A stretch of 64,000 nt of DNA from assembly GCF_015234305.1 (NCBI RefSeq), contig NZ_JADGMI010000003.1:481884-545883 (forward strand), read 5' to 3'. The position numbers were made by a program, and so were the translations under genes. Origin of the DNA: Superficieibacter sp. 1612_C1 (GTDB taxonomy: Bacteria > Pseudomonadota > Gammaproteobacteria > Enterobacterales > Enterobacteriaceae). This document shows positions 4,020 to 11,372 of this stretch, one piece after another. Position 1 is the stretch's first letter; every line of letters begins with the position of its first letter. The notes below the pieces were generated by a model. It did not search any database and had not been told where the DNA came from. It was given only the letters and a program-made list of their open reading frames with translations.

Positions 4020-6206
4020 ATGGCTGCTTACCCCGATATCCAGGATATCTCAGACGCTCCTGTTGATAACGTAATAAAAAACGACCCACGACTACATCAT
4101 GACGATCCGTTGTTGGATTGTTTGCTGGTGATGTGCAAACTGCACGGCATTATCGCAACTCGTACAATGCTCAGCGCCGGACTGCCGCTGTCGGCGCACT
4201 CGCTGACGCTCAGCACGTTCCCCCGCGCGGCGCAGCGCGCCGGGCTGAAAGCCAGGGCGATCCAGCGCCCGCTTGAGAAGATAACCGCGCTTTCGCTACC
4301 GGCCATTGTGCTGTTAACCCACGATCGCGCCGCCGTGCTGCTCGGGTGGGATGAGCAGGGTCAGGCGCGTCTGCTGCCGAGTGAAACGGAAGGCGGCGAG
4401 ATCCGCGTGCCGCGTGAGACGCTTGCGGAAAACTATGCAGGCAAGGCAATTTTTATCCAGCCGGAGCATGAGTATGATACCCAGCCGACCGCGACGATCC
4501 CGCGGACAAAGAACTGGTTCCGGGATACGTTAAAGCTCTCCCGCTTGCTGTATGTAGATGCGGTCGTCGCCAGTTTTATTATTAATATCATCGCCCTGTC
4601 GACACCATTGTTCGTGATGAACGTCTACGATCGCGTGGTGCCCAATCAGGCTACCGCTACGCTATGGGTGCTGGCGATTGGCATTACGATTGCGTTTGTG
4701 TTTGATTTTATCCTCAAGATTTTACGCAGTGTCTGCCTCGATCTGGCGGGGAAAAAGACCGATCTTATTGTTTCCGCCGCGCTGTTTGAACGTCTTCTGG
4801 GGATGAAAATAAAGACGCGTCCCAAACGCGTCGGCAGCTTCGCGCAGAATTTTCAGGAATTCCAGTCGCTGCGCGATTTTCTCTCATCGCTGACGCTGAC
4901 CGCGCTGATTGACCTGCCCTTTACCCTGCTGATCCTGCTGGTGATTGGCATCATTGGCGGCCCGCTGGTGTTTATTCCGCTGCTGGCCTATCCCGTCGCG
5001 CTGCTCGTGAACTGGGCTATTCAACGCCCGCTACTGTCCACTATCGAAAAAACCTATAAGCTCGCCAACGAGCGCCAGGCAATGCTGATTGAAACGCTGG
5101 GCGGCCTGGATGCCATTAAGATCAATAACGCCCAGAGCGACCGTCAGTATCAGTGGGAGCAGATTATCGGCCAGCTCAGCAAGCTGGAGATGCGGGTGAA
5201 GTCGCTCTCTTACGTGGCAGTGAATTTCACCACCTGGCTGCAACAGGTCTGCGGTGTGAGTATCGTGGTGGCCGGGGTCTATATCATTATCGGCGGCAAT
5301 TTGAGTATGGGCGGGCTGATTGCCTGCTATTTGTTGACCCGCCGCGCGATGATCCCGGTGAGCCATCTTTGCAGTCTGGTCACCCGCTACCAGCGCGCCA
5401 GTATGACCAAAACAACCATCGACCGCATGATGTCGCTGGAACAGGAAAGCGAGCAGGTTGAGGTGCCGTTAAAACGCGAAACGCTCTCCGGCGCGATTGA
5501 GCTGCGCGACGTAACGTTCAGCTATCCCGATAACCAGAATGCCGCGCTGACCAACGTGTCGCTGAGTATCGCGCCCGGTGAAAAGGTGGGGATCATCGGG
5601 CGTAGCGGATCGGGAAAAAGCTCGCTGGCGAAGCTGCTGCTCGGCTTTTACCAGCCGGATGCGGGCAGCGTGCTGATTGATGGCATCGATGCCCGGCAAA
5701 TTGACGTGCACGATCTGCGGCATAACATCGGCTATGCGCCGCAGGATGTGCATCTGTTCAACGGTACGCTGCGCGACAATCTGTTATTCGGCGCAAGCTA
5801 TGTCGATGAAGAAACCATGCTGCGCGCGGCGCAAATCAGCGGCGTCCACGAGTTCGCCCGCCGTCACCCGTCTGGTTACAGTATGCAGGTGGGCGAGCGC
5901 GGGATGAATCTCTCCGGCGGTCAGCGCCAGGCGGTGACCCTTGCCCGCTCGCTGCTGCTCGATCCCCCCGTGTTGTTAATGGATGAACCCACCAGTTCAA
6001 TGGACAACACCAGCGAAGATCTGATTAAGAAAGCGCTGGCGACGGTGATCGGTCAAAAAACCCTGCTGCTGGTTACGCATCGTGCCTCCCTGCTGTCACT
6101 GGTCGATCGGCTGATTATTCTGGATAACGGTAAAATTATTGCCGACGGACCGAAAGAGAGCGTGATGAGCGCGCTGAAAAAAGGACAGATCCATGCGAAC
6201 CGCTAA
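4020..6206 (+). CDS. Type I secretion ABC exporter with degenerate C39-like domain (LapB/BapC type)
   Basis: The 728 residues contain, in order, an N-terminal C39-peptidase-like domain (about 25-150), a six-helix transmembrane domain (about 160-440) and an ATPase domain. Walker A GRSGSGKSS is near residue 527, the LSGGQ signature near 631, Walker B LLMDEP near 654, then the switch His in VTHR. Aligned by eye with active C39 peptidases, the catalytic Cys position in DPLLDCLLVMCKLHG falls on Pro2 of that stretch, so the domain should bind substrate and not cleave it. This is known for LapB/HlyB-type exporters of large adhesins with a C-terminal signal. The stop overlaps the HlyD-type gene by 14 bases, indicating translational coupling. 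Confidence 0.92.
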   Translation: MAAYPDIQDISDAPVDNVIKNDPRLHHDDPLLDCLLVMCKLHGIIATRTMLSAGLPLSAHSLTLSTFPRAAQRAGLKARAIQRPLEKITALSLPAIVLLTHDRAAVLLGWDEQGQARLLPSETEGGEIRVPRETLAENYAGKAIFIQPEHEYDTQPTATIPRTKNWFRDTLKLSRLLYVDAVVASFIINIIALSTPLFVMNVYDRVVPNQATATLWVLAIGITIAFVFDFILKILRSVCLDLAGKKTDLIVSAALFERLLGMKIKTRPKRVGSFAQNFQEFQSLRDFLSSLTLTALIDLPFTLLILLVIGIIGGPLVFIPLLAYPVALLVNWAIQRPLLSTIEKTYKLANERQAMLIETLGGLDAIKINNAQSDRQYQWEQIIGQLSKLEMRVKSLSYVAVNFTTWLQQVCGVSIVVAGVYIIIGGNLSMGGLIACYLLTRRAMIPVSHLCSLVTRYQRASMTKTTIDRMMSLEQESEQVEVPLKRETLSGAIELRDVTFSYPDNQNAALTNVSLSIAPGEKVGIIGRSGSGKSSLAKLLLGFYQPDAGSVLIDGIDARQIDVHDLRHNIGYAPQDVHLFNGTLRDNLLFGASYVDEETMLRAAQISGVHEFARRHPSGYSMQVGERGMNLSGGQRQAVTLARSLLLDPPVLLMDEPTSSMDNTSEDLIKKALATVIGQKTLLLVTHRASLLSLVDRLIILDNGKIIADGPKESVMSALKKGQIHANR

Positions 6207-7548
6207 CCGTCTGCTGAGCTGGCTCTCCGGCGATAAAAGCGCGAATCAGTTCTCCACCAGCGAAGTGAATAAGGCTCTGCTGGACGACTCACCTCGCGTG
6301 GTGCGTATTACGCTATGGGCGATTTTCGCCTTCTTTCTGGCGCTGATTGTCTGGGCCTCGCTTGCCAGTATTGATGAAGTGACGCGCGGCGAAGGACGCG
6401 CGATCCCCTCCTCCCGGCTGCAAAAAGTACAGAACCTGGAAGGCGGAATTGTGGCGCAGGTGTTTGTCCACGAAGGGGAAGTGGTGCAGGCTGGCGCGCC
6501 GCTGCTGCGCCTGGACGATACGCGCTTCAAATCCAACGCCGGGGAGACGGAAGCCGATCGGCTGTCGTTGCAGGCGCGCATCCAGCGTCTTAACGCACAG
6601 TTAAACGACCAGCAAACGCTGACGCTTAACCCGGAGATCGTCAAACAAGCACCGGACATCGCTCAGGGGGAAATCGACCTTTTTAACAGCGTTAATAAAC
6701 GCATTCAGGATGAAATTGCCGGGTTAAACGAACAACTGGTGCAGAAAAAGCAGGATTTGCTCGATTATAAAGCTAAACAGGCCCAGTTCCGTAACAGTCT
6801 GCGCCTGCTCCAGCAGGAAATCTCCATGTCTGTACCGCTGGTAGCTAAGGGCGCAATATCCAAAGTAGAAGTGCTGCGTCTCCAGCGCTCTGAGGTCGAT
6901 ACGCGCGGCCAGCTTGATTCTGTAACGCTCTCGATCCCCGGCGCAGAAGCGGCGATTAAAGAGATCCAGAGTAAAATCGCCGAGACCCGGGGACGCTACC
7001 GTAGCGATGCCCTTTCACAACTGAATGAAGCACGTACCGATCTGAGTAAGATTGAGGCGTCGGGGAAGGCGATTGAAGACCGGGTTAACCGCACGCTGGT
7101 CACCTCGCCGGTGAGAGGTATCGTGCAGCAACTGTTGGTCAATACTATCGGTGGCGTGATCCAGCCGGGCAACGACCTGGTGGAGATTGTGCCGCTGGAT
7201 GACACGCTGCTGATTGAAACCAAAATCCGCCCGCAGGATATCGCCTTCCTGCATCCGGGGCAGCGGGCCATCGTCAAATTTACCGCTTACGACTACACCA
7301 TTTATGGCGGTCTGGAAGGTAAACTTGAACAGATCAGCCCCGATACGGTGACGGATAAAGACGGTAAAAGCTACTACGTGATCCGCCTGCGTACCGATAA
7401 AAACCATCTCGGCAGCGACAGCAAGCCGCTGTTAATCATTCCGGGCATGGTCGCCTCGGTGGATATTATCACCGGCAAGAAAACCATCCTTGCTTACCTG
7501 ATGAAACCAATCCTGCGCGCCAGAGCGGAAGCGTTTCGCGAGCGTTAA
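6193..7548 (+). CDS. HlyD-family periplasmic adaptor of the type I exporter (LapC/BapD type)
   Basis: This 451-residue membrane-fusion protein has a short cytosolic N-terminus, one membrane helix (about 36-57, WAIFAFFLALIVWASL), then a split lipoyl domain (VQNLEGGIVAQVFVHEGEVVQAG, about 78-100), long coiled-coil hairpin (about 110-300) and the C-terminal beta-barrel (about 300-430). Family role: it bridges the ABC exporter and the TolC-like channel. The start codon lies inside the end of the ABC gene (14-base overlap). It is the last gene of the cluster and is followed by a hairpin shared with the convergent transporter gene. Confidence 0.92.
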   Translation: MRTANRLLSWLSGDKSANQFSTSEVNKALLDDSPRVVRITLWAIFAFFLALIVWASLASIDEVTRGEGRAIPSSRLQKVQNLEGGIVAQVFVHEGEVVQAGAPLLRLDDTRFKSNAGETEADRLSLQARIQRLNAQLNDQQTLTLNPEIVKQAPDIAQGEIDLFNSVNKRIQDEIAGLNEQLVQKKQDLLDYKAKQAQFRNSLRLLQQEISMSVPLVAKGAISKVEVLRLQRSEVDTRGQLDSVTLSIPGAEAAIKEIQSKIAETRGRYRSDALSQLNEARTDLSKIEASGKAIEDRVNRTLVTSPVRGIVQQLLVNTIGGVIQPGNDLVEIVPLDDTLLIETKIRPQDIAFLHPGQRAIVKFTAYDYTIYGGLEGKLEQISPDTVTDKDGKSYYVIRLRTDKNHLGSDSKPLLIIPGMVASVDIITGKKTILAYLMKPILRARAEAFRER

Positions 7549-7552
7549 GGAG

Positions 7553-7572
7553 ATGCCCGGCGTGCCGGGCAT
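7553..7572. terminator. Hairpin between convergent hlyD-like and MFS genes
   Basis: A 9-bp GC-rich stem (ATGCCCGGC at 7553-7561, GCCGGGCAT at 7564-7572) lies between the ends of two convergent genes. It lacks a strong T-run on either strand, so it is probably a weak bidirectional terminator. Confidence 0.5.
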
Positions 7573-7577
7573 TGAGG

Positions 7578-8876
7578 TTAATGATCGGTAACGGCTCCCT
7601 TTACGCGCAGTTCATCCGGGTTATCGTCACCATGACGTAGCATCAGCGCGCCCACGGCGGCCAGCACCGCCAGCACAATGGCGTAAAACGCGATAGGCCA
7701 CCACGCACCGCCCGCGCTGCTTTGCAGGGCGACAGCGATAAACGGCAATGTCCCGCCTGCCGCCGCGCCAGCCAGCTCGCGGCTGCCTGCCATTCCGGTA
7801 TAGCGTATATGCGCGGGGAACGCTTCCGATAGCATCGCCGCCTGCGCGCCCAGCATCGCGTCATTACAGGCGCAGTAGATGAGGAACATCCCCAGCCAGA
7901 TAAGCCCCTGCTCCCCGGTATTCAGCAGCAGGAAAAACGGCACAATCAATACACCCAGACCCACTGCGCCAGCCAGAAAGACCTTCCTGGCACCGAATTT
8001 GTCGCTAAAGGCTCCTGCCGCAGGCACGGTAATGAATTTAATGAAATTGCAGATCATCACTCCCATGACGCCGACGCTTTTATCCACACCGACATGCACG
8101 ACCAGATAGGTCAGCGCGAATGCCGAGGGAAGATAGGAGGTGACATTGGGTCCGATGCTTAGCAGGAAAGCACCGATAAAATTGCGCGGTTTGCGCTGAA
8201 ACACTTCGACCAGCGGTAGGCGTTTAGGGGCATCCGTGACTTTAACCGCCTTAAACTCAGGGCTTTCTGCCACGCCGGTTCGGATCCAAATCCCCACGAT
8301 CCCGATGATGAATGAAGCGACAAACGGAACCCGCCATCCCCAGCTAATCATCTCTTCACGCGGTAACTGCTGGACGGCGATGATCGCCAGGCTGGCAATA
8401 ATCGATCCCAGCGCATTACCTGCCCCCGGAATAGAGGCAAACAGCCCGCGGTTCTTTTTCCCGGCATGTTCCGCCGAAAGCAATACCGCGCCGGAATACT
8501 CTCCGCCCGCCGCGAAACCCTGTCCCAGGCGGCAAATGACCAGCAGGATCGGTGCCCACAGACCGATGGTGTGATAAGCCGGAATCAACCCAATCAGCGT
8601 GGTGGATACCGCCATCAGCACCAGGGTGAAAAAGAGCATGCCCCGGCGACCCAGTTTATCGCCGAGCGAGCCGACGATCAGGCCGCCAAAGGGACGGGCA
8701 AAGAAGCCCACGCCAAAAGTAGCGAACGATGCCAGGATGCCGTATGCGCCGCTCATTTCCGGGAAAAAAACGTAAGGAAAAATCAACGCGCTGGCCATGC
8801 CGTAAAGCGCGAAATCATACCACTCAAGCGCAGTGCCTACAGTGGAGGCCAGCGCCGAACGTTTTGCATTAGACAT
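7578..8876 (-). CDS. MFS transporter, metabolite:H+ symporter (MHS) subfamily
   Basis: The 432-residue, 12-helix protein begins SALASTVGTALEWYDFALYG and carries FARPFGGLIVGSLGDKLGRR between helices 2 and 3. Both are hallmarks of the MHS subfamily that includes ShiA, KgtP and ProP. These carriers import small organic acids or zwitterions with protons; the substrate here cannot be read from sequence. The start ATG lies 3 bases after the stop of the upstream unknown gene, so it is the last gene of a three-gene unit. It has no close positional counterpart in the E. coli map, and is distinct from the nearby proP. Confidence 0.88.
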   Translation of the reverse strand: MSNAKRSALASTVGTALEWYDFALYGMASALIFPYVFFPEMSGAYGILASFATFGVGFFARPFGGLIVGSLGDKLGRRGMLFFTLVLMAVSTTLIGLIPAYHTIGLWAPILLVICRLGQGFAAGGEYSGAVLLSAEHAGKKNRGLFASIPGAGNALGSIIASLAIIAVQQLPREEMISWGWRVPFVASFIIGIVGIWIRTGVAESPEFKAVKVTDAPKRLPLVEVFQRKPRNFIGAFLLSIGPNVTSYLPSAFALTYLVVHVGVDKSVGVMGVMICNFIKFITVPAAGAFSDKFGARKVFLAGAVGLGVLIVPFFLLLNTGEQGLIWLGMFLIYCACNDAMLGAQAAMLSEAFPAHIRYTGMAGSRELAGAAAGGTLPFIAVALQSSAGGAWWPIAFYAIVLAVLAAVGALMLRHGDDNPDELRVKGAVTDH

Positions 8877-8879
8877 GGC

Positions 8880-9215
8880 TCACCCCTTCAGTGCCAGATG
8901 TAAAGTGATCATCGCAGCCTGTTTAGCGTCTGCGAGCGTAAGTTCAAGGCACAGCCAGCCGCCAAAATGCGATTGCGCAATGGCGATGGTGCCCGGTTTA
9001 TCCACTCTCGTTGCCTCGCCTGGCGCATCGATCCAGTGAATACCATCGGGCGAGATTTTTGGCCTGACCACTATTTGCGTAAAATCCGCCAGCTCCGGAT
9101 GAACAGTTAAAAAGAACAGCGCTTCGTTTGCCCAGCCACATTCATAAGGTTCAGTTAAAAAGGTATTTTTAATCGGCTGGCGTAATTCCACGACCGAGGT
9201 ATAAAACTCTTTCAT
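8880..9215 (-). CDS. Unrecognised 111-residue protein in the GntR/MFS module
   Basis: I do not recognise this protein. The ATG at 9215 is preceded by GAGG nine bases upstream and sits 10 bases after the previous gene's stop; a longer upstream-open frame would overlap that gene deeply and is unlikely. The 111 residues have no signal peptide or membrane helix and alternate short strands (VELRQPI, ALFFLTVHP, FTQIVVRPKISPDGIHWIDA, HFGGWLCLELTL), suggesting a small beta-sandwich. HFGGWLCLEL near the end is reminiscent of carbohydrate-binding folds, but that is only impression. Context suggests it works with the 310-residue partner on the compound imported by the MHS carrier. Confidence 0.75.
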   Translation of the reverse strand: MKEFYTSVVELRQPIKNTFLTEPYECGWANEALFFLTVHPELADFTQIVVRPKISPDGIHWIDAPGEATRVDKPGTIAIAQSHFGGWLCLELTLADAKQAAMITLHLALKG

Positions 9216-9225
9216 TAATTCATCC

Positions 9226-10158
9226 TCACGCCTGACGATTAAGGTAATCACCGGTGGATAAAACCACGGAATCCAGGTAAAGGAAAACGCGTCGGTTAGC
9301 GCCCGTTTCAATAAAGAACACCGGATTAAGCAAACCGGTAATGCCTTTATATTCTGGTGCCAGCGTTGGTTGTTTTCCGCGGAGATCCATAACTTTATCC
9401 ATGCACTGTAATTCCACATATTCTCTGCGGGATACGTCCACCGTTAAACGCATATACATCCAGTTAATTTTATCATCGGCTTCATTAGCGACCAGATCCT
9501 GATGCCCGTCTTCAACCCACTGAAAACCATCGGCGGACCCGTCAGCCTGGCGCTGCCCATACCACTGGCTGTCAACGCCAACCTTATGCCAGCCGTCGTG
9601 GCCATAATTCCAGCGGCGGTGATCGACACCCTCATTAACCCGGAAATATTGCCAGCGCTTAATATATTCGCCATCGGCGCTGTTGACATAGCGTACCCCC
9701 GGCATCCAGCGGTTTTGCTGGCTTTGCAGATCGATAAAACAGCCAAAGGCACGCACGTCGCGGTCGCCAAGCCCGGCCACCGAAGGCTCCGGCGTGAAGG
9801 TAAACCAGGCTTCCAGCTGGAGCAAATGCAGGCTGCCGGGAACCGCCATACGTTTAATCGCCAGCCCCATGCTGCCCGGCGCGGGCGGCTGGTCGATGGG
9901 CGCGCTATTGGCCCGGGTCGTCAACTTTAGGGAGCGGCTACCGCTCATCGCGCCGTGCGTTCCCATCATTGGAAACGTGGCGGAGGAGAGCATTGTCGGC
10001 CCCCAGTGAATAAGATCGATTTCTTCCGAATGCGGCGCAAAACCGGCTTTAACAAAATTAGGTCGCAGATCTAACCAGCCACAATGGCCATAATTAAAAT
10101 TATCAAAGGTAATTATATTCTTAAGCGGTAAATACTTAGAGAGCGCGTAATCGGTCAT
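9226..10158 (-). CDS. Unrecognised 310-residue beta-rich protein in the GntR/MFS module
   Basis: No family can be named with confidence. The protein has no signal peptide and no membrane helix, so it should be cytosolic. It is rich in Trp, Tyr, His and Asp (DNFNYGHCGWLDLRPNF, WGPTMLSSATFPMMGTHGAMSGS, RRWNYGHDGWHKVGVDSQWYG) and appears mostly beta strand, as in jelly-roll sugar-binding or lyase folds. Aromatic and His/Asp clusters could form a ligand pocket. It is first in the unit 310-aa gene, 111-aa gene, MHS carrier, and lies downstream of gntR across a 278-base gap with operator-like sites. An enzyme or binding protein for the imported metabolite is inferred only from context. Confidence 0.78.
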   Translation of the reverse strand: MTDYALSKYLPLKNIITFDNFNYGHCGWLDLRPNFVKAGFAPHSEEIDLIHWGPTMLSSATFPMMGTHGAMSGSRSLKLTTRANSAPIDQPPAPGSMGLAIKRMAVPGSLHLLQLEAWFTFTPEPSVAGLGDRDVRAFGCFIDLQSQQNRWMPGVRYVNSADGEYIKRWQYFRVNEGVDHRRWNYGHDGWHKVGVDSQWYGQRQADGSADGFQWVEDGHQDLVANEADDKINWMYMRLTVDVSRREYVELQCMDKVMDLRGKQPTLAPEYKGITGLLNPVFFIETGANRRVFLYLDSVVLSTGDYLNRQA

Positions 10159-10384
10159 AGGCCATCTCTTATAATGAATACAGGGCTGCCCTTCGCTTAA
10201 AAAAAAGCGAATTCGCCAAAGAAAAAAGTAACAGGGAAAACATTATTCAGGACGATATTAATGGCGCATAATATGACTCTCCAGATGATCGGCTAAACCG
10301 GGGAAGGCGATAAAATGAGCTTAATAGAAGTTTTTGCCAGCGGTAAAGGCGCTCAGGTGCAGAGTGTGAGGCGGGGCACATAAT

Positions 10385-10427
10385 TGGTCAGTCAACTTGG
10401 CGGTTAACGTCATTTTTGGCCTGACCA
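10385..10427. promoter_or_regulatory. Pair of GntR-type operator candidates between gntR and its target genes
   Basis: Two copies of a quasi-palindrome of form TGGNCNGNCCA are seen: TGGTCAGTCAA (10385-10395) and TGGCCTGACCA (10417-10427), 32 bp apart (about three helical turns). They lie just past the gntR stop and about 230-270 bases upstream of the 310-aa gene. The same motif occurs twice in front of gntR. FadR-subfamily GntR proteins typically bind short palindromes of this kind. Confidence 0.6.
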
Positions 10428-10436
10428 ATAATGGCA

Positions 10437-11195
10437 TTACAGCGATTTTTTGTTATCCAGCGGTGTGGAAGTGAACAGGTAACCGTCAAAATCCGCAGCG
10501 GAGATGTCCGCCAGCGTCAGCATTTTGTTCTTCACGTTTTCTATATGTTGCCACATCGCCTGTTTTGCGGCGGCGGCGTCGCGATGCTGGATAGCTTGCA
10601 GAATACGCAGCCGATCCTCAAACCACGCCCAGCGCGCGCTAAAATCGCTGGTATCGTGATGATGATTCTGCCACATGCCGGAACGGTGACGCAGCTTCCA
10701 GCTTTCCTGCACAATGGCGACCAGCGCCGCGTTTTGTGTCGCCATAGCGACCAGATAATGAAAATGCTCATCGGTATCGTCAGCAATGGTGCCAGAAGAG
10801 AGCTGCACGCGTTCCAGTTCAACGGCTTTACGCAGTTCAACGATGTCATTTTTAGTGGCCTGGAGAGCGGCAAATCCGGCGATTTCACTCTCCAGAAGCT
10901 GCCGGGCCTGTAGCAGTTCAAAAACGCCGCAGTTCACGCTATCCGATTCAGGTGCCGGTGACGATACGGCATCAGGAGAAGCAGGAAGAACATACACGCC
11001 GGACCCTTTGCGTATTTCCACGCATCGCTCCAGCTCAAGGAGGATCAGCGCTTCTCTTACCACGCTGCGACTGACGCTGAACTGGGCCGCGATATCGCGC
11101 TCCGCCGGGAGTTTATCCCCCGCTTTGAACACACCCTGCTGGATGGCATCGCGTAATTTTTGCCCTATCTCCTGATATAATCTCATTTCTGTCAC
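10437..11195 (-). CDS. GntR-family regulator, FadR/UxuR subfamily
   Basis: The 252-residue protein has an N-terminal winged helix (about 5-75: LYQEIGQKLRDAIQQG, AGDKLPAERDIAAQFSVSRSVVREAL, EIRKGSGVYVLP) and a C-terminal all-helical FCD ligand domain (about 95-230) with the Asp/His pattern DEHFHYLVAMATQN that often binds metal and a carboxylate or sugar acid. The listed start is GTG at 11195; an ATG three codons inside (11186) is an equal alternative, and neither has a strong ribosome site. Operator-like palindromes flank the gene on both sides, suggesting autoregulation plus control of the downstream three-gene unit. The ligand is unknown. Confidence 0.88.
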   Translation of the reverse strand: MTEMRLYQEIGQKLRDAIQQGVFKAGDKLPAERDIAAQFSVSRSVVREALILLELERCVEIRKGSGVYVLPASPDAVSSPAPESDSVNCGVFELLQARQLLESEIAGFAALQATKNDIVELRKAVELERVQLSSGTIADDTDEHFHYLVAMATQNAALVAIVQESWKLRHRSGMWQNHHHDTSDFSARWAWFEDRLRILQAIQHRDAAAAKQAMWQHIENVKNKMLTLADISAADFDGYLFTSTPLDNKKSL

Positions 11196-11215
11196 GCTCG
11201 CTTAGACGTAAAATG

Positions 11216-11248
11216 TGGACCGACCAAAAGCCATTTGTGGTCTGTCCA
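11216..11248. promoter_or_regulatory. Pair of GntR-type operator candidates upstream of gntR
   Basis: TGGACCGACCA (11216-11226) and TGGTCTGTCCA (11238-11248) match the same TGGNCNGNCCA pattern seen downstream of gntR. Their starts are 22 bp apart, about two helical turns. They sit 20-50 bases upstream of the gntR start, where a repressor would block its own promoter. Confidence 0.65.
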
Positions 11249-11321
11249 CTTCGCTTTCTTCATCATCGCAAATTATCACGATAATAGCCAATACGAGACG
11301 TGCCGTTGCAAAGAGAGGGAT

Positions 11322-11351
11322 ATAAAAAAGCCCGGCACATAAGGCCGGGCC
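11322..11351 (-). terminator. Rho-independent terminator of proP
   Basis: Read on the minus strand, a 7-bp GCCCGGC/GCCGGGC stem (11350-11344 with 11336-11330) is followed by a run of six T. It lies about 20 bases after the proP stop codon. Confidence 0.85.
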
Positions 11352-11372
11352 CAGTTAATAAGGCGTTGTCCC

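Follow-up and report, generated by a model that had tools for sequence, protein, structure and literature searches.

What does a pair of adjacent genes for two beta proteins, placed between a GntR-type regulator and a transporter, do for its host? This question is raised by a locus of Superficieibacter sp. 1612_C1 that lies in a window of 64,000 nucleotides, the window being the whole stretch of DNA that was analysed. The genes run on the minus strand (window 7578-11195) in the order gntR, a gene for a 310-residue protein of the family DUF6772, a gene for a 111-residue protein and a gene for an MHS-type (metabolite:H+ symporter) carrier; upstream of them lies proP, and from the other side a secretion gene of the HlyD type converges on them. 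A preliminary description of this DNA had listed the same regulator, two beta proteins and carrier, and all four were found at that place and on that strand. The answer that we favour, and to which we give about an even chance, is that the module is a catabolic unit for an acidic sugar, in which the DUF6772 protein and the small protein would make up one two-subunit cytosolic enzyme feeding hexuronate metabolism.

The pairing of the DUF6772 protein with the small protein, and the linkage of their genes, is well supported across genomes. Relatives were sought in the genomes of 84,980 bacterial and archaeal species, which gave at least 275 places with a DUF6772 relative. The best 80 were kept as loci (numbered with L), and counts over them are not independent because they are the best-scoring of the 275 and are rich in Rhizobiales; 7 of the 80 are under 12 kb long. 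It was found that the small gene lies directly 3' of the DUF6772 gene in 79 of the 80 loci, and that in the 80th (L097) the contig ends about 200 bases past DUF6772. All seven records with a DUF6772 match in a plasmid collection have the small gene beside it, and in five loci there is a second DUF6772 copy, each copy with its own small partner. With start codons picked by rule, the two genes overlap or are at most 15 nt apart in 78 of the 82 measurable copies (84 examined); three gaps of 299-417 nt do not fit a tight coupling. In the window the coordinates leave 10 bp between the two genes and 3 bp between the small gene and the carrier. Over 58 pairs the tree distances of the two proteins are correlated with r 0.92, and 2000 label permutations gave at most 0.33; this backs co-inheritance more than contact, because a shared neighbour history would also produce such a correlation. 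In the two-copy loci L029, L031 and L087 the own partners fit better than swapped ones. The constant core of the module is the two beta proteins, and the transporter and the regulator vary by lineage. A separate arrangement was observed in Microlunatus and Humibacter (L029 and L031, at about 6200-11260), where two deeply different DUF6772-small protein pairs face outwards around one MHS carrier.

The 310-residue protein is a member of DUF6772 (PF20562; 322.9 bits against a cut-off of 27, E 2.2e-96, residues 2-303 of 310), and the 111-residue protein is, by profile comparison, a remote relative of DUF6385 (PF19912). The window protein scores below the DUF6385 cut-off (18.6 against 26.8 bits), and a weak match is seen in 54 of 59 aligned small-protein members at E<=0.01, the best at 1.4e-7. 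NCBIfam profiles gave no match for either. The earlier view that neither belongs to a nameable family has therefore to be amended: the larger protein has a family name, though one that carries no function, and the smaller falls below its cut-off with a distant relation still visible. The other early statement, that neither carries a signal peptide, agrees with the N-termini as read by eye. The AlphaFold2 model of the DUF6772 protein (pLDDT 85.7, pTM 0.89, with weak stretches around residues 36-43) predicts a concanavalin-A-like fold, a two-sheet jelly roll of the L-type lectin kind. Compared with solved structures by VIA it aligned to ERGIC-53 with Z 13.9 and a root-mean-square deviation of 3.6 Å over 200 residues, legume lectins being tied within 1 Z, and 508 of 992 aligned chains reached Z>=8. 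The alginate lyase Aly36B (6kzk) stands at rank 24 among the Foldseek matches; that a lyase family is missing from the VIA rows is no evidence. By sequence, no solved relative was found, the best profile match being the tannase 6yq4 at E 0.32. The small protein is predicted to be a jelly-roll sandwich (pLDDT 95.0, pTM 0.86), its model aligning by VIA to YomS (Z 11.2, deviation 2.2 over 96 residues) and XepA (Z 11.1), and no convincing solved relative was found by sequence. Since the structural lists hold mostly lectins and general sandwiches, no enzyme class was taken from them. The early guess at carbohydrate lyase and jelly-roll folds stands at the level of fold and does not extend to catalytic function.

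A hint of catalysis comes from conservation. The DUF6772 alignment draws on 53 of the 80 loci and has 59 rows once the window and the five second copies are added (L025 was left out for a stop in the range, L042 as decayed and 25 others by hand as similar). Across these rows, which come from three phyla, 20 columns are invariant, many of them charged or amide, and they include D19, R103, E116, D143, R150, R156, N159, N225, E226, K230 and N232. This would favour an enzyme over a lectin.

The genes around the pair point to sugar acids, though to no single compound. Within 8 kb of DUF6772, the 80 loci hold a sugar ABC permease in 61, a binding protein in 58, a mandelate racemase/MLE enzyme in 55, a GntR regulator in 53, an ABC ATPase in 45, an SDR dehydrogenase in 44, an SMP-30 lactonase in 13 and an MHS carrier in 8; permease, GntR, MLE and SDR are all present in 40. 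Either a sugar ABC permease or an MHS carrier is thus near the pair in 69 of 80 loci (61 + 8). Because the seeds for these neighbours came from the window, L014, L018 and L019, the counts would overlook any further family of transporters or enzymes close to the pair. As a positional control, matches up to 4 kb from DUF6772 (608.8 kb of sequence) were compared with those at 6-10 kb (532.4 kb). The near zone held more GntR (55 vs 0), MLE (60 vs 2), MHS (9 vs 0), SDR (51 vs 12), SMP-30 (9 vs 2), permease (62 vs 25) and binding protein (23 vs 4) matches, and the order was reversed for the ABC ATPase (15 vs 51), a gene at the far end of Rhizobium-type clusters. The MLE protein of L014 aligns with 4ggb, 3ozm and 5olc, a galactonate dehydratase among them, and keeps, as read by eye, their KxK, D-E-E, D and H positions, which we take to be the lysine, metal-ligand and histidine positions of that enzyme group. 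Links to hexuronates are suggested by a UxuA over its cut-off together with a PfkB protein like KDG kinase, below NCBIfam cut-offs, in Sphingomonas L034, by a gluconokinase in L024, by uxuA in the module's own genome (a full-length match at one place and a match split in two pieces at another) and by the UxuR/ExuR-like regulator. The gluconokinase domain of the Frankiales locus L024, also over its cut-off, was observed fused to a FAD_oxidored domain in an open reading frame of 640 residues (7169-9088).

The carrier belongs to a distinct MHS group that is linked to DUF6772 in two phyla. It passes the Pfam cut-offs for MFS_1 and Sugar_tr, and it stays below those of TIGR00883 for the MHS subfamily (378.4 against 443.45 bits) and of the shikimate transporter model NF007414 (334.5 against 538). 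It is 49-55% identical to the DUF6772-adjacent carriers of six actinobacterial loci (L020, L027-L031) and about 33% identical to the ProP of the window, whose gene starts 2.5 kb away. That ProP is itself 31-34% identical to the six actinobacterial carriers and 98.8% identical to the ProP of Superficieibacter electus BP-1 (L021). In the DUF6772 tree four Enterobacterales rows and a Frankiales row stand inside a 13-row clade that is otherwise actinobacterial, with SH-aLRT support of 99 for the clade and 91 for the fork with the Frankiales row; the nesting is suggestive only, because long branches meet at the base of the tree. Together these data suggest that carrier and pair moved together between phyla.

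The regulator is of the FadR type, as described earlier, since its GntR DNA-binding domain (80.5 bits against a cut-off of 27) and its FCD domain (63.6 against 24.3) both exceed their Pfam cut-offs. Its best NCBIfam models, UxuR (252.9 against 442) and ExuR (220.3 against 396), stay below their equivalog cut-offs. Because the genome encodes two other regulators that are 44-45% identical to it, the GntR of the module is a further paralogue. A pair of operator-like sites was found in each of the two promoters, that is, four distinct places in 455 bp together against about 0.1 expected by length. This enrichment is partly circular because the pattern was drawn from one of the sites, and a scan of the window at up to 2 mismatches gave 21 matches against a chance mean of 16.5, no overall excess. 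The operator claim rests on position and conservation, because the genome-wide search is uninformative alone. The promoters were aligned over eight Enterobacterales loci including that of the window, in which L021 and L007, and likewise L023 and L006, are seemingly the same genomes from two collections. In the gap between gntR and DUF6772 the TTGGTC/GACCAA pair is kept in 7 of the 8 loci (L022 deviates); the pair before gntR is kept less strictly, with L005 and L008 deviating, and L022 keeps the pattern poorly in both promoters. From the site pairs it is predicted that GntR probably controls both its own gene and the operon. LacI-type genes near the pair in L026 and L027, and by N-terminal sequence alone in L028, L029 and L031, make the UxuR-like gntR look like a local addition in Enterobacterales. 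A further operator-like site with one mismatch, GTGGTCAGGCCAA, was observed inside the small gene (window 9059-9071).

The idea of one regulon for acid uptake and cytosolic processing, put forward in the preliminary description, gains from the sites in both promoters, from co-occurrence and from the sugar-acid enzymes beside homologues. Homologues do occur beside GntR or MHS genes, the lack of which had been named as counting against that idea. As a regulon of four genes it needs restriction, the full set being seen solely in Enterobacterales.

Our data thus suggest the following scheme. The carrier would import an acidic sugar or sugar derivative together with protons, and the concanavalin-A-like DUF6772 protein and the small jelly-roll protein would form one two-subunit cytosolic enzyme that turns the import into a hexuronate or aldonate by hydrolysis, lyase cleavage or ring opening. 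Breakdown of this product could be finished by the cell's own UxuA-type pathway, and the UxuR-like GntR would sense a pathway intermediate and be released by it. In many other proteobacteria the same pair could serve beside a sugar ABC transporter, an SDR dehydrogenase and sometimes an SMP-30 lactonase, with an acid-sugar enzyme of the enolase superfamily. We infer the complex, its catalysis and reaction, the class of substrate and the inducer from gene context, conservation and predicted folds.

Several observations weigh against this scheme. The Enterobacterales module has no dehydrogenase, lactonase, oxidoreductase, dehydratase or enolase-type gene of its own. UxuA stands beside the pair in one locus alone, nearby hexuronate genes are confined to single loci, and a gene of Cellulomonas L026 that resembles fructuronate reductase is below the cut-off (332 against 603). 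In 11 of the 80 loci the search within 8 kb found no such sugar ABC permease and no MHS carrier; among them another MFS gene is present in L024, L034 and L080, a peptide-type binding protein in L026 and decayed carrier fragments in L042, and in the flanks of the other six no transporter was identified. For L036 and L057, two loci that do have the GntR/ABC/SDR set, the flanks retrieved contain no MLE. In L026 and L076 the own partners are not clearly better than swapped ones. The operator pattern by itself is common genome-wide: with 1 mismatch allowed, each strand has 39 matches, fewer than the 86 and 66 of the backwards control. Finally, most of the listed structural matches of the DUF6772 model are lectins or binding domains, and concanavalin-A-like folds are often plain binding proteins.

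The last point leads to another possibility, that the pair is a non-catalytic, lectin-like sugar-binding complex of the cytosol, acting as a buffer, chaperone or sensor for the carrier or the pathway enzymes, with the chemistry done by enzymes encoded elsewhere in the genome. The small protein, too, resembles binding sandwiches, and many proteobacterial loci contain other genes whose products could carry out the chemistry. In Enterobacterales, by contrast, the unit is either there or missing in its entirety, and apart from the regulator the pair are its only cytosolic proteins. Loop-based lectin sites usually keep fewer invariant columns than the twenty, many of them charged, that DUF6772 keeps over 59 rows from three phyla. 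A binding complex is thus, in our opinion, unlikely. It could also be that, as with other MHS carriers, the substrate of the module is not a sugar but an organic acid or osmolyte of a shikimate-like or betaine-like kind, and that the sugar-acid neighbours elsewhere were recruited later. The named carrier models closest to the carrier are the shikimate transporter and ProP, although both stay below cut-off, and proP adjoins the module, yet its product shares just the one-third identity given above. The sugar ABC permease (61 of 80 loci) and MR/MLE enzyme (55 of 80) beside the pair, the positions kept in the MLE of L014 and the likeness of the regulator to UxuR/ExuR make such a substrate improbable.

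The catalytic reading has a variant with a different chemistry. In oxidation-assisted deglycosylation an oxidoreductase first makes a keto-sugar, which is then cleaved, and by analogy the pair might be a 3-oxo-sugar lyase or hydrolase, with the concanavalin-A-like protein doing the cleavage. Oxidoreductases are indeed found beside homologues, namely SDR enzymes in 44 of 80 loci, FAD_oxidored proteins in L024, L026 and L087 and a Gfo/Idh protein in L032. The Enterobacterales unit, however, is without one, a literature search on the analogy gave no match, and the tannase match (E 0.32) gives no sequence link to a solved relative. We regard this variant as very unlikely. The two-subunit enzyme for an acidic sugar is the reading that we retain. 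A wider form of it, which we put forward more tentatively and with somewhat less than an even chance, is that the pair represents a new class of two-subunit intracellular enzyme on a lectin-type fold, opening an undescribed acid-sugar pathway in Pseudomonadota, Actinomycetota and Chloroflexota, and that it passed between Actinobacteria and Enterobacterales as a cassette of carrier and enzyme.

Where the module is kept, it is under strong purifying selection as judged from codon comparisons. Against five relatives all dN/dS values were far below 1, with 0.03-0.06 for DUF6772, 0.07-0.15 for the small protein, 0.02-0.07 for the carrier and 0.05-0.09 for GntR; 3 of the 20 comparisons were saturated and gave no ratio, and L006 and L023, with identical values, are seemingly one genome. 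The module is at the same time patchy and dispensable, and apparently it has moved horizontally. In one genome of the same genus (G424) window positions 7549 and 11372 lie about 60 bases apart, so that 7550-11371 is missing cleanly; another (G630) keeps the module, and in a third (G551) the slot is occupied by 4.3 kb of different DNA. That DNA (L145 8359-11760) was observed to hold an open reading frame with Hcp, S-type pyocin and DNase domains and two further DNase-domain frames. With such frames in the module's place, what lies between hlyD and proP appears to be a variable slot. A DUF6772 match was found in 6 of 392 genomes of the family (own included), being in pieces in G472 and G419. Of 369 genomes drawn from across the class, the window's own alone exceeded the DUF6772 cut-off, with two weaker matches below it; of 398 drawn from the phylum, three exceeded it, again counting the window's own. 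No DNA match to the module was found in 5,426 E. coli genomes, and none of the 27 pattern matches in viral contigs was a relative. Decaying copies were observed in other Enterobacterales (L008/L010, L009/L011, L042), including a Sodalis-like endosymbiont, with DUF6772 in pieces and the carrier fragmented.

The features of the locus are collected in the table. The gntR gene probably starts at the ATG at 11186, giving 249 residues, since this codon is present in all eight aligned Enterobacterales loci; the GTG start was thought less likely. For the small gene, an upstream start giving 179 residues in the mechanical list of open reading frames was also considered less likely, because orthologues align to the 111-residue start, and GAGGATG stands directly before the latter. 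The consensus scan for promoters and terminators showed no excess in the window (4 terminator-like sites against a shuffle mean of 5.1).

Table. Features of the module and its predicted control sites (window coordinates).
Feature	Position	Strand	Basis and remarks
MHS-type MFS carrier (metabolite:H+ symporter group)	7578-8876	minus	Pfam Sugar_tr and MFS_1 over cut-off
Small partner protein, 111 aa	8880-9215	minus	Predicted jelly-roll sandwich; remote DUF6385 relative
DUF6772 (PF20562) protein, 310 aa	9226-10158	minus	Pfam profile and predicted concanavalin-A-like fold
Second operator-like site of the gntR-DUF6772 pair; minus strand reads TTGACTGACCAA	10384-10396	plus	2 mismatches; GACCAA half-site in 7/8 loci, not L022
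Operator-like site TTGGTCAGGCCAA in gntR-DUF6772 promoter	10416-10428	minus	Source of scan pattern; aligned across Enterobacterales loci
gntR	10437-11195	minus	FadR/FCD-type GntR regulator; Pfam GntR and FCD over cut-off
Operator-like site TTGGTCGGTCCAC upstream of gntR	11215-11227	minus	1 mismatch; L005, L008, L022 deviate in alignment
Second operator-like site upstream of gntR, GTGGTCTGTCCAC	11237-11249	plus	2 mismatches; aligned
Terminator-like hairpin between proP and module	11328-11352	minus	Consensus scan

Two further observations concern other parts of the window. At positions 1-2388, upstream of the secretion genes, roughly the first 800 bases are coding sequence of a repetitive kind, which gives many self-similar BLAST pieces in relatives; this is presumably the adhesin locus of the preliminary description, and its two open reading frames had no Pfam match at E<=1e-5. 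An open reading frame of 153 residues at 17441-17902 matches PhnH, with the best stretch covering just the last part of the profile, and may be a cut or frameshifted gene.

A search of 5.39 million open papers for DUF6772 by name and by its accession PF20562 found no paper, and none was found for DUF6385. The constant pairing, with a sugar ABC permease or an MHS carrier close by, turns two proteins without an assigned function into one testable candidate enzyme, and relatives are encoded at 275 or more places in genomes. The Enterobacterales unit, which consists of regulator, pair and carrier alone (L021, L022, L023), is the smallest version seen, so the substrate may be found most easily there.

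The module can be compared with several known systems. In its predicted fold the DUF6772 protein resembles L-type lectins and concanavalin-A-like proteins (ERGIC-53, legume lectins, Aly36B); its identity to them is about 8%, and it differs in showing no secretion signal by eye, in having a jelly-roll partner and in keeping its own set of invariant polar residues. Within the family, the Enterobacterales members are longer than the alphaproteobacterial ones by a net of about 28 residues through several inserts. The small protein is tied to DUF6385, itself functionless, by the weak profile match across members and set apart from it by a score below the curated cut-off. The carrier resembles MHS carriers of the ShiA and ProP type in a near full-length match to the subfamily profile, but it is far below both cut-offs and closer to the actinobacterial DUF6772-linked carriers. 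The regulator shares with ExuR and UxuR of E. coli the FCD-type GntR architecture and, in its predicted operators, TTGGTC/GACCAA half-sites in which 3 nt separate GT from AC. One report (PMC4494728) gives the FadR-subfamily consensus as TKGT/ACMA, typically with 3 nt between GT and AC, a spacing reported there for ExuR and others, and the form of the operator-like sites agrees with that consensus.

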